Shown: positions 9,208-12,160 of the stretch, one piece after another
Layout: every line of letters starts with the position of its first letter
Position numbering within the stretch: the stretch's first letter is position 1
Assembly: GCA_002746155.1 (NCBI GenBank)
Contig: NVWF01000001.1
Span: forward strand, 40,850-79,773
DNA from: Gammaproteobacteria bacterium
GTDB lineage: Bacteria; Pseudomonadota; Gammaproteobacteria; Enterobacterales; GCA-2746155
Length of the DNA stretch: 38,924 bases
Direction: 5' to 3'
The notes under the pieces: model-generated
Databases searched by the model: none
What the model was told of the DNA's origin: nothing
What the model saw: only the letters and a program-made list of their open reading frames with translations
Made by a program: the position numbers and the translations under genes

Positions 9208-9284
9208 AGATTGCGTATTAAACCGGATGTCATTTTACGCTAGTTGCTATAAAAATGTCCATAATACAATGCTGAAAAAATGAT

Positions 9285-9300
9285 TAATTCTGCAGAATTA
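9285..9300. promoter_or_regulatory. Perfect 16-bp palindrome upstream of carA
   Basis: TAATTCTGCAGAATTA is a perfect 16-bp palindrome between carA and the first regulatory RNA. It does not match the ArgR box (TGAAT-N4-ATTCA) or the LexA box that I know. Its position fits an operator for carA or for the divergent small-RNA promoter. No regulator can be named. Confidence 0.35.
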
Positions 9301-9385
9301 GTCCTAATTTTGAATTAACCTAGCTAGCCGCAATAAAAAATCAAACGGTTTTGTTTATCCTAACTATAACCTTGTTCGGTTTGAT

Positions 9386-9403
9386 TGTGAGAGATCTCTC
9401 AAT
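9386..9403. promoter_or_regulatory. GacA/UvrY-like response-regulator box upstream of sRNA 1
   Basis: TGTGAGAGATCTCTCAAT contains the perfect 14-bp palindrome TGAGAGATCTCTCA and matches the family of GacA/UvrY/VarA boxes (TGTAAG-N6-CTTACA and E. coli variants with AGAGATCTCT at the centre). Its centre is about 150 bp upstream of the predicted start of sRNA 1, a distance typical of Csr/Rsm RNA promoters. A second similar box precedes sRNA 2. Confidence 0.7.
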
Positions 9404-9542
9404 ACCATATGAGATATTCGCCATAGATGGTGGAGGAGATTGTCCATTCTTGGAAAAGAGATACAAACTAACTTATTGATAATATAGATTTATTTATTTT
9501 AACATCTAAAAAACACTAGATTTTTCAAAATATGCTCTTGTA

Positions 9543-9733
9543 GGAAATTCTCCCATGGATATGATTAACCTCGTTTTCAGGGATGAAACACTAGACTCAC
9601 ACGGAAGTTGCTACCACAAAGGACTGTCACAAGGAGGTCTGCATGGAGCAAGGGCGTTTAGGATTGACCGCCGTGACATGGATGTTACAAGGACTATTTT
9701 TAATCAAAAAGGGCGATTATCGCCCTTTTTGTT
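9543..9733 (+). ncRNA. CsrB/RsmX-Y-Z-type CsrA-sequestering small RNA, copy 1
   Basis: This non-coding stretch carries ten GGA motifs (9543, 9557, 9581, 9603, 9621, 9633, 9645, 9661, 9680, 9691) and ends in a strong intrinsic terminator. Several GGA motifs fall in the loops of short hairpins: TTTC-AGGGAT-GAAA (9575-9588), ACA-AAGGAC-TGT (9616-9627), TGC-ATGGA-GCA (9640-9650) and GTGAC-ATGGAT-GTTAC (9673-9688, one G-U pair). GGA in a hairpin loop is the binding site of CsrA/RsmA. The predicted start near 9543 follows a TATGCT -10 (9531-9536) with no good -35, as expected for an activator-dependent promoter. A 79-codon open frame crosses the region and its terminator, but I regard it as chance. 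By family knowledge such RNAs titrate CsrA and relieve its translational repression. The 5' end is inferred. Confidence 0.8.
9706..9730 (+). terminator. Intrinsic terminator of sRNA 1
   Basis: AAAAAGGGCGA (9706-9716) and TCGCCCTTTTT (9720-9730) form a perfect 11-bp stem with a TTA loop, ending in a T run and followed by GTTGTTT. This is a textbook rho-independent terminator on the plus strand; the A/T symmetry could also let it act on the minus strand. Confidence 0.9.
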
Positions 9734-9762
9734 GTTTAGCATAAAGACAACAATTTGCTATT

Positions 9763-9780
9763 TGTGCGAGATCTCTTACA
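9763..9780. promoter_or_regulatory. GacA/UvrY-like response-regulator box upstream of sRNA 2
   Basis: TGTGCGAGATCTCTTACA matches TGT-N3-AGATCT-CTTACA, with the canonical right arm CTTACA and the AGATCTCT core shared with the box at 9386-9403. Its centre lies about 178 bp upstream of the predicted start of sRNA 2. It sits just after the terminator of sRNA 1, so each RNA seems to have its own activator site. Confidence 0.75.
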
Positions 9781-9915
9781 AATCTGTAGGATAAAATACA
9801 ATAAACCACTAGATATTTTCACTTTTTTAAATTCAAACTTTACATAACACCTTGATTTTTAAATTAATCTTCATTAATTCATCGATAAAGCTATTTTTAT
9901 GAAGGCTAGACTGTA

Positions 9916-9943
9916 TTGAACCTCAATCTAAATCCTTTATAGT
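9916..9943 (+). promoter_or_regulatory. Predicted promoter of sRNA 2
   Basis: TTGAAC (9916-9921), a 16-base spacer and TATAGT (9938-9943) form a reasonable sigma-70 promoter. A start near 9950 places transcription directly before the GGA-rich RNA. Confidence 0.6.
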
Positions 9944-9949
9944 TAATTC

Positions 9950-10092
9950 GTGCAAAGGGAATTGCATAAATCACCCCAAGGATGGGGCGAGCAAGGATGC
10001 TAAGGATTGTAAGATCCAAAGGATACAACAAGGATGTTGTAGCTTGTCAGCAAAGTAATACCAGAGGGTGGTTAATTATCACCCTCTGATAT
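9950..10092 (+). ncRNA. CsrB/RsmX-Y-Z-type CsrA-sequestering small RNA, copy 2
   Basis: A second GGA-rich RNA of about 140 bases follows the first. It has six GGA motifs, five of them inside exact AAGGAT copies (9978, 9993, 10002, 10019, 10030). Three AAGGAT copies are perfect six-base hairpin loops: CCCC-AAGGAT-GGGG (9974-9987), AGC-AAGGAT-GCT (9990-10001) and TACAAC-AAGGAT-GTTGTA (10024-10041). This is the arrangement expected for high-affinity CsrA/RsmA sites. A GacA-like box, a sigma-70-like promoter and a 3' hairpin frame it. Its sequence differs from copy 1 outside the motifs, so the two look like functional paralogues and not a recent duplication. No open frame of note lies in it. Confidence 0.85.
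10062..10088 (+). terminator. 3' hairpin of sRNA 2 (probable terminator)
   Basis: CAGAGGGTG (10062-10070) pairs perfectly with CACCCTCTG (10080-10088) around a 9-base loop. Only a weak T-containing tail (ATATTCT) follows, so termination may be partial and some transcripts may continue into dapB. Confidence 0.6.
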
Positions 10093-10206
10093 TCTACAAA
10101 CCTTTGTTAGTTTACAAACCCCTAAACTGTACAAATTCCTATAAACCCTATTATTTTTGCCTTATACTTTTTACTCATACAAAATCCATGTCGGATCGAA
10201 ACAAGC

Positions 10207-11025
10207 ATGAGCAAAAATAACAAAACAGTTAAAGTGGCAGTTGCTGGGGCTAATGGCCGGATGGGATTAGAACTGTTGCAAGAATGTATTGCCAATAACA
10301 GGCTTGATGTTAGCGAAGCTCTCGTCAGACCATCGAGTAGATTACTCGGCAAAAATATTTCTGAGTTATTAACTGAGCAGGAACTAAACTTAACCTTCTC
10401 ATCCCAATCAGAAGCCTTGAAGCCAGAAACAAGAGTACTTATTGACTTTACTTTGCCAGACAATACCTTAATCAATATTCAAACTTGTGTTGATAATAAT
10501 AGAGCCATCGTCATTGGAACTACTGGGTTTAGCCCTGAGCAGCAACAAAGCATCGTTGAGGCTTCAAGTCACATCGCCATTTTACAAGCATCCAATATGA
10601 GTGTAGGGGTGAATCTAACCTTAGCCCTACTGAAACAGGCTTCAAGCGTTTTAGGTACTGATGTAAAAGTTGAGATCCTCGAAACCCATCATATCCATAA
10701 GAAAGATTCGCCTTCAGGAACTGCGGTTACTATGGGCGAAGTAATCGCTAACTCCAACAACAAGAGTTTGCAGGATTGTATGGTAATAGATGATTCTCAG
10801 AGCCTGTCAACGGATGTCGGCTCTATCAAATTTAGCTCAATTCGAGAAGGCGAAGTCATTGGTGATCACCAGGTTAGTTTTATAATGAATGATGAAGTGA
10901 TTGAAATCTCACACAGAGCAATTGACAGAAAAGTATTCGCCAAGGGTGCCGCTAGAGCAGCTATTTGGCTCTTTGGTAAAGCGCCAGGCTTATATGCTAT
11001 GGATGATGTTCTGGGACTAAAATAA
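10207..11025 (+). CDS. dapB: 4-hydroxy-tetrahydrodipicolinate reductase
   Basis: DapB reduces 4-hydroxy-tetrahydrodipicolinate with NAD(P)H in the diaminopimelate/lysine pathway. The 272-residue protein has the nucleotide-binding VAVAGANGRMG (about 10-20), TGTTGFSPEQ, and the active-site segment ETHHIHKKDSPSGTA, where the second His pair and Lys match the family HHxHKxDxPSGTA. In many relatives dapB runs directly into carA; here it points away from carA with two small RNAs between them. It converges on dnaJ with only 7 bases between the stops and no terminator visible in that gap. Confidence 0.97.
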   Translation: MSKNNKTVKVAVAGANGRMGLELLQECIANNRLDVSEALVRPSSRLLGKNISELLTEQELNLTFSSQSEALKPETRVLIDFTLPDNTLINIQTCVDNNRAIVIGTTGFSPEQQQSIVEASSHIAILQASNMSVGVNLTLALLKQASSVLGTDVKVEILETHHIHKKDSPSGTAVTMGEVIANSNNKSLQDCMVIDDSQSLSTDVGSIKFSSIREGEVIGDHQVSFIMNDEVIEISHRAIDRKVFAKGAARAAIWLFGKAPGLYAMDDVLGLK

Positions 11026-11032
11026 CCAAGGA

Positions 11033-12160
11033 TTACATCGCATCAAAGAATCGTTTAACTCCATCAAACCAACTTGATGCTTGGGGAGAGTGTTTGGTCG
11101 TTCCCTCTAAAGATTTAGAAAATGCTTCCATCAAGCCTTTTTGCTCTTTACTTAATTTAACAGGTGTTTCAATAACCACTCTGCACATTAAATCGCCTGC
11201 TGAGCCACCACGCATGGGCTTGACGCCCTTGCCTCTTAGTCTGAACATACGTCCAGTTTGTGTTTCAGAGGGTATGTGCAACTTAACTCGACCATTAAGG
11301 GTTGGCACTTCGAGATCACCACCAAGAGCTGCTATATGAAAACCAATCGGTACTTCACAGTAGAGGTTTTCACCATCTCTTTGAAAAATTTCATGCTCTT
11401 TTACATGAATTTGTACATAAAGATCACCGGAAACAGCGCCCGGGCCGCCGGCTTCACCTTCACCCGATAAGCGAATACGATCTCCAGTGTCTACACCTGA
11501 AGGTACCTTTACCGATAAGGTTTTAACCTTTTTAGTACGGCCTTGTCCTGAACAGGTGGTACAAGGATCCTTGATCATCTTGCCTTGCCCATGACAAGCA
11601 GGGCAGGTTTGTTGAATTGAAAAGAAGCCCTGTTGCATGCGAACCTGACCAACACCACCACAGGTAGTACAGTTTACTGGAGAAGAACCTTTTTTAGCGC
11701 CTGAACCTGAACAGCTTTCACAATTAACATAGGTTGGGATTTTGATTTTGACCGTCGTGCCACTTACTGCATCTTCTAGTGAAAGTTCGAGGTTATATCT
11801 TAGATCTGATCCCCTGGCTTGTCGCTGTTGACCACCTCGACCAGCACCACCGCCGCCGAAGATATCACCAAATACATCACCAAATACATCACTAAAATTA
11901 CCAGAACCAGCTCCGCCACCGCCAAATCCGCCAGCACTTTTTAGGCCTTCGTGACCATAACGATCGTAGGTAGAACGCTTTTCTTCATTAGAGAGAACTT
12001 CATAGGCTTCTTTAGCTTCTTTAAACTTTTCTTCGCCGTCTTTACCAGGATTACGATCAGGATGAAATTTCATAGCCTTACGCTTGTAGGCTTTTTTCAT
12101 CTCTGCATCAGTAGAGGATTTAGATACACCAAGTACTTCGTAATAATCACGCTTAGACAT
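11033..12160 (-). CDS. dnaJ: Chaperone DnaJ
   Basis: DnaJ is the Hsp40 co-chaperone that delivers substrates to DnaK and stimulates its ATPase. The 375-residue protein has a J domain with HPD (33-35), a Gly/Phe-rich region (about 75-115), four CXXCXGXG zinc repeats ([32 protein letters not shown]), and C-terminal substrate-binding domains. It follows dnaK after a 102-base gap that holds a strong hairpin, giving the usual grpE-dnaK-dnaJ order. Confidence 0.98.

Follow-up and report, generated by a model that had tools for sequence, protein, structure and literature searches.

A probable tandem pair of GacA-controlled Csr/Rsm sponge RNA genes beside carA in a gammaproteobacterium

Introduction

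The hexamer AAGGAT occurs five times within a short interval between carA, on the minus strand, and dapB, on the plus strand, in a gammaproteobacterium of the order Enterobacterales (contig NVWF01000001.1). The intergenic region spans positions 9234-10206 of the window, the whole stretch of 38,924 nucleotides that was analysed, and dnaJ-dnaK-grpE lie beyond dapB. Does this cluster belong to a small RNA that binds the regulator CsrA, or is it a leader of dapB, a small translated frame or a repeat array? The marks of a Csr/Rsm sponge gene that were looked for are several ANGGA or GGA motifs with a good part of them in loops, a promoter and a Rho-independent terminator of its own and no coding frame, a GacA/UvrY box upstream of the promoter, and a genome that also encodes CsrA, GacA/UvrY and the BarA/GacS kinase.

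The motif cluster and its hairpins

The original prediction described the interval 9950-10092 as a second Csr/Rsm-type RNA with five AAGGAT motifs, three of them as exact hairpin loops of six bases. All five copies are indeed found between 9978 and 10035 on the plus strand, and three of them are hexaloops closed by the Watson-Crick arms CCCC/GGGG, AGC/GCT and TACAAC/GTTGTA (Table 1). The last of these stems shares its first base with the fourth motif, which ends in that T. The predicted interval was good, the likely transcript, called RNA2 here, being about 9951-10098. A sixth site, which had escaped the earlier list, is the sequence AGGGAA at 9956-9961, the loop of a hairpin at the 5' end.

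The energy models usually close the hexaloops by one extra A-U pair, leaving a 4-nt AGGA loop. The predicted probabilities of being unpaired are 0.89, 1.00, 0.85, 0.02, 0.56 and 1.00 for the six GGAs of RNA2, so that four of the six ANGGA sites are clearly exposed in the ensemble (at least 0.85). The motif at 10002 is predicted to be buried, probably by pairing with GATCC at 10013-10017. RNA2 thus carries several ANGGA/GGA motifs, of which a good part are in loops. The CsrA consensus obtained by SELEX is RUACARGGAUGU, presented in hexaloops (PMC7652899). The sequence ACAAGGATGT of the TACAAC/GTTGTA hairpin is the core of that consensus, and together with the six-base loops it matches the SELEX optimum.

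The window at large shows no enrichment of AAGGAT (31 copies observed, 30 expected), and the signal therefore lies in its clustering. Neither five AAGGAT copies nor three such hairpins arose in any of 5000 dinucleotide shuffles, whether it was the RNA body that was shuffled or the entire intergenic region. When the motifs were held fixed and the remaining letters shuffled, at least three stems of 3 bp appeared in 7 of 200,000 trials (p about 3.5e-5). RNA2 is more stable than its shuffles (MFE z-score -4.28). An RNA from the minus strand at the same place folds better still (z -7.79), but the motifs, promoters and terminators all fit the plus strand, and the minus-strand fold is discounted because the antisense of a hairpin will necessarily fold too.

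Table 1. Features of the two proposed RNA genes in the window and of their counterparts in the congener (locus L120)
Feature	Position	Strand	Remarks
RNA1, proposed sister CsrA-sponge RNA	9571..9735	+	eight GGA sites
GacA/UvrY-box-like palindrome of RNA1, TGTGAGAGATCTCTCAAT	9386..9403	.	14/18 match; congener counterpart TGTGCGAGATGTCTCACA at L120:802
Sigma70-like promoter of RNA1, TTGTAG-16-TATGAT	9538..9565	+	-10 ends 179 nt past box start
Intrinsic terminator of RNA1, AAAAAGGGCGATTATCGCCCTTTTT	9705..9731	+	called by terminator scan
RNA2, proposed CsrA-sponge small RNA	9951..10098	+	start from promoter, end from terminator hairpin
GacA/UvrY box (upstream activating sequence) of RNA2, TGTGCGAGATCTCTTACA	9763..9780	.	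16/18 bases of TGTAAGAGATCTCTTACA
Sigma70-like promoter of RNA2, TTGAAC-16-TATAGT	9916..9943	+	-10 ends 180 nt past box start
5' hairpin TGCAA-AGGGAA-TTGCA	9951..9965	+	GGGA loop
AAGGAT copies	9978-9983, 9993-9998, 10002-10007, 10019-10024, 10030-10035	+	
Hairpin CCCC-AAGGAT-GGGG, candidate CsrA site	9974..9987	+	arms 9974-9977/9984-9987; GGA P(unpaired) 1.00
Hairpin AGC-AAGGAT-GCT, candidate CsrA site	9990..10001	+	arms 9990-9992/9999-10001; GGA P(unpaired) 0.85
Two AAGGAT motifs between hairpins	10002..10024	+	first predicted to pair with GATCC (GGATT-GTAA-GATCC); second half exposed
Hairpin TACAAC-AAGGAT-GTTGTA	10024..10041	+	arms 10024-10029/10036-10041; contains ACAAGGATGT
RNA2 terminator hairpin, CCAGAGGGTG...CACCCTCTG then ATATTCT	10061..10095	+	weak T tract
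Congener box, RNA1	L120:802		
Congener box, RNA2	L120:1282		counterpart of box 9763
Congener promoters, TTGTAG-16-TATTCT and TTGTGG-16-TACTAT			

Two units of the same design

The intergenic region holds two units built in the same way, each consisting of a box, a promoter, an RNA and a terminator. That RNA2 is the second RNA of its type, as had been claimed, is borne out by RNA1, which lies just upstream with a box, a promoter and a terminator of its own. There is no evident similarity between the two RNAs outside the motifs. RNA1 is just mildly more stable than its shuffles (z -1.93).

A GacA/UvrY box lies upstream of the promoter of RNA2. In the literature the GacA site reads TGTAAG-N6-CTTACA, and that of rsmZ in P. 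aeruginosa is at -196 (PMC4950607). The RNA2 box is the sole zero-mismatch match to the degenerate pattern TGTNNGANATNTCNNACA in the 3.5 Mb genome to which the window belongs. The box palindromes are symmetric, and their direction was assigned from the positions of ANGGA, of which mostly four to seven occur in the 180-330 nt downstream of a box and mostly none upstream. RNA2 has its own promoter and a Rho-independent terminator, whose hairpin is strong and whose T tract is weak in this species; the hairpin was not called by the terminator scan. RNA1 and the RNA2 of the congener have full terminators. The promoters are weak consensus matches picked after inspection, in a region that holds about the number of such matches that chance alone would yield (6, with 4.3 expected).

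Conservation in the congener

The sole other genome of the genus and family among those compared (G001, the congener) has both RNAs on contig C86, between carA and dnaJ. Its units also carry boxes, promoters, GGA-rich bodies and terminators, and the RNA2 terminator has a full T tract. Exact matches to TGTNNGANATNTCNNACA number only two in its 3.3 Mb, and these are the boxes of the two orthologous RNAs. From the start of the box to the end of the -10 element the units of the window measure 179 and 180 nt and those of the congener 178 and 179 nt, so that all four copies lie within 178-180 nt.

The longest stretches that are identical between the RNA2 bodies of the two species are the CsrA motifs CAAGGATGG and ACAAGGATG, and also CAAGGATG. 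In the RNA1 bodies the islands GCATGGAGCA and CATGGATGT are identical. The RNA1 of the congener is no more stable than its shuffles (z 0.17). The first RNA2 hairpin presents its AGGGAA loop on GTGCAA/TTGCAT in the window and on GTGCA/TGCAC in the congener. In the second, CAAGGATGG sits on CCCC/GGGG in the window and on TTATTAC/GTAATAA in the congener, where the hairpin has slipped by one base. The expectation that an orthologous alignment would reveal kept loops on changed stems thus held in these two species for the first two hairpins and failed for the middle of RNA2, which MAFFT aligns poorly and in which the number of motifs and their arrangement are not conserved one to one. The original argument that the structure was selected, and not produced by copying, gains from three observations: the stems are unrelated, they pair far more often than in shuffles, and in the first two hairpins of RNA2 they have changed between species yet still pair.

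The surroundings of the RNA pair differ between the two genomes. In the window (9234-11033) an inverted dapB separates the RNA pair from dnaJ; the gene is absent from the corresponding interval of the congener (L120 600-1705), whose best dapB match is distant (about 31%) and on another contig. In relatives where dapB and carA are both seen, they are neighbours that point the same way. The locus formed by carA, the RNA pair and dapB/dnaJ is rearranged.

Weighing the explanations

By combining these observations it is possible to assign to 9950-10098, with a probability of about 95%, a stand-alone non-coding small RNA gene of the Csr/Rsm sponge class, which would be activated by GacA and titrate CsrA together with RNA1. 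The Csr/Rsm-type identity is supported by the GacA box, the promoter at fixed spacing, the terminators, the existence of RNA1, a genome that encodes csrA as well as gacA, and the retention of the pair in the congener.

The gene dapB (10207-11025) has the orientation of RNA2 and begins about 108 bp beyond it, which might suggest that RNA2 is a 5' leader or a riboswitch-like element of dapB, and the weak T tract after the RNA2 hairpin makes read-through possible. The congener, however, has kept RNA2 with a strong terminator followed by the convergent dnaJ and no dapB. No leader or riboswitch family of Rfam matches, and all 29 dapB loci that were compared in other families lack a GacA box. A role as a dapB leader is therefore very unlikely. 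Still less credence is given to the idea of a small translated frame for which the AAGGAT copies would act as Shine-Dalgarno-like sequences. Such a frame of 35 amino acids does run through RNA2 (9982-10089, plus strand), and the motifs resemble ribosome-binding sites, but the congener has no related frame, the motifs are conserved while the DNA between them is not, and three of them lie in hairpin loops. Moreover, the start codon shares bases with its nearest motif, which leaves too little distance for a ribosome-binding site.

Five identical hexamers within 58 nt could also be the remains of a degenerate direct-repeat array that arose by copying and has no function as RNA. The identity ends at CAAGGATG, however, the stems on either side of the copies are unlike one another, their pairing far exceeds that in shuffles, and conservation in the congener together with box and promoter contradicts this origin, which is about as improbable as the translated frame.

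Proposed mechanism

The genome that carries the proposed sponge pair encodes both CsrA and GacA/UvrY. CsrA is a near-canonical protein of 66 residues (87.7 bits), the gene of which adjoins alaS, and the UvrY/GacA equivalog scores 335.4 bits against NF007018 (curated cut-off 280). For the BarA/GacS kinase (model NF008318) the best matches, BarA-like hybrid kinases, reach 663.6 bits in this genome and 796 in the congener, both under the curated cut-off of 890. A second, divergent CsrA-like frame of 72 amino acids is also present (L002 1501-1719; Pfam CsrA, 33.2 bits). Directly beyond csrA and convergent with it lies a 396-aa frame that looks transposase-like by eye; the two genes occupy L001 6-1196 and 1459-1659.

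Transcription of RNA2 and RNA1, its dependence on GacA, CsrA binding and titration are what we infer from the sequence, and the process might be described as follows. A kinase of the BarA/GacS type would phosphorylate the GacA/UvrY response regulator, which in this state would bind the 18-bp box at 9763 and activate the promoter at 9916-9943. The resulting RNA2, about 148 nt long, would offer four GGA loops that are clearly exposed, along with one or two weaker sites. CsrA dimers would become bound at these sites, and the target mRNAs of CsrA would be released. RNA1 would act in the same way from its own GacA-controlled promoter, the two RNAs together forming one titration device.

It is conceivable, though rather unlikely, that the weakly structured RNA1 and RNA2, with its stable hexaloops near the SELEX optimum, diverged anciently and are non-redundant, differing in their affinity for CsrA or in turnover, and that leaky termination of RNA2 couples dapB to the Gac signal in the window species.

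Relation to known sponge RNAs

At gathering scores Rfam has no match within the window. In a relaxed search RNA2 aligns over the full length of the PrrB_RsmZ model (RF00166; 9949-10092, 27.0 bits, E 4.2e-4), as does the RNA2 of the congener (32.5 bits, E 1.6e-5), both below the gathering score of 44. A minus-strand stretch that is mainly terminator also reaches 23.9 bits, and part of the score is therefore due to the terminator. Membership in RF00166 was rejected on account of this sub-threshold and partly terminator-derived score. Membership in RF00018 (CsrB/RsmB, gathering score 71 bits) was likewise rejected, as the RNA2 locus has no match at gathering and none is listed for it at E up to 10. 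In function RNA2 would nevertheless belong to the Csr/Rsm sponge RNAs and probably work like RsmZ and CsrB, while standing outside both families.

RsmZ/PrrB of Pseudomonas, at about 120-150 nt, is similar to RNA2 in size; it likewise has a terminator, several loops with ANGGA and a GacA box roughly 180-196 nt upstream, and RNA2 aligns over the full length of its model. RNA2 differs in its genomic place, between carA and dapB, and in its tandem arrangement with a second sponge RNA. With CsrB/RsmB it has in common the sponge principle, the control by UvrY/GacA and GGA hairpin loops that carry the SELEX core ACARGGAUGU. Its length of about 148 nt, however, falls far short of the 356 positions of the CsrB model, and it has fewer sites. 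Tandem rsmX copies occur in Pseudomonas brassicacearum, P. fluorescens F113, P. stutzeri and P. syringae (PMC7911923). There too, two sponge-RNA genes lie side by side under the control of GacA boxes; they are, however, duplicates of 75-87% identity, whereas RNA1 and RNA2 are dissimilar outside the motifs and have been kept as a pair across two species. In Marinomonas mediterranea, csrB and csrC depend on a BarA/UvrY-like pair according to RNA-seq (PMC8523701). They have the GacA box, ANGGA hairpins and terminator of RNA2, but lie at two separate loci and are longer. The sponge pair described here is new and its kind well known, which a specialist would find expected rather than surprising.

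Relatives in the order

A search for relatives by way of dapB in named genomes yielded only distant dapB genes and no RNA locus. Among the 29 dapB loci mentioned above, a GGA cluster was found at one, without a box. The lack of boxes at these loci suggests that the carA-side position is particular to the genus of the window, as far as it has been sampled. A set of 248 genomes of the order was also scanned for three AAGGAT in a row, and the many matches that were simple repeats or lay inside coding sequence were discarded. In three families (f5, f9 and f10) intergenic GGA clusters lie downstream of GacA boxes, often as two or three tandem units. Eight such units exceed the Rfam threshold for CsrB, which validates the logic of the search.

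These results suggest that the Gac-Csr switch of a little-sampled gammaproteobacterial family probably uses a pair of short sponge RNAs in tandem, which fall below the Rfam thresholds. Where sequence models fail, such RNAs are recovered by a simple rule (a GacA box, a promoter with a -10 element ending about 179 nt past the start of the box, and clustered ANGGA hairpins). That several families of the order have sponge genes in tandem points to a common dosage device and not to a peculiarity of Pseudomonas.

Tandem CsrB/Rsm-like RNAs, two or three at a locus and many with a GacA box of their own, were seen at L169 (1264-3326), at L158, L159, L160 and L165, at L161-L163 and at L177. Those of family f5 (L158-L160 and L165) score under the Rfam gathering thresholds and look like an undescribed group.
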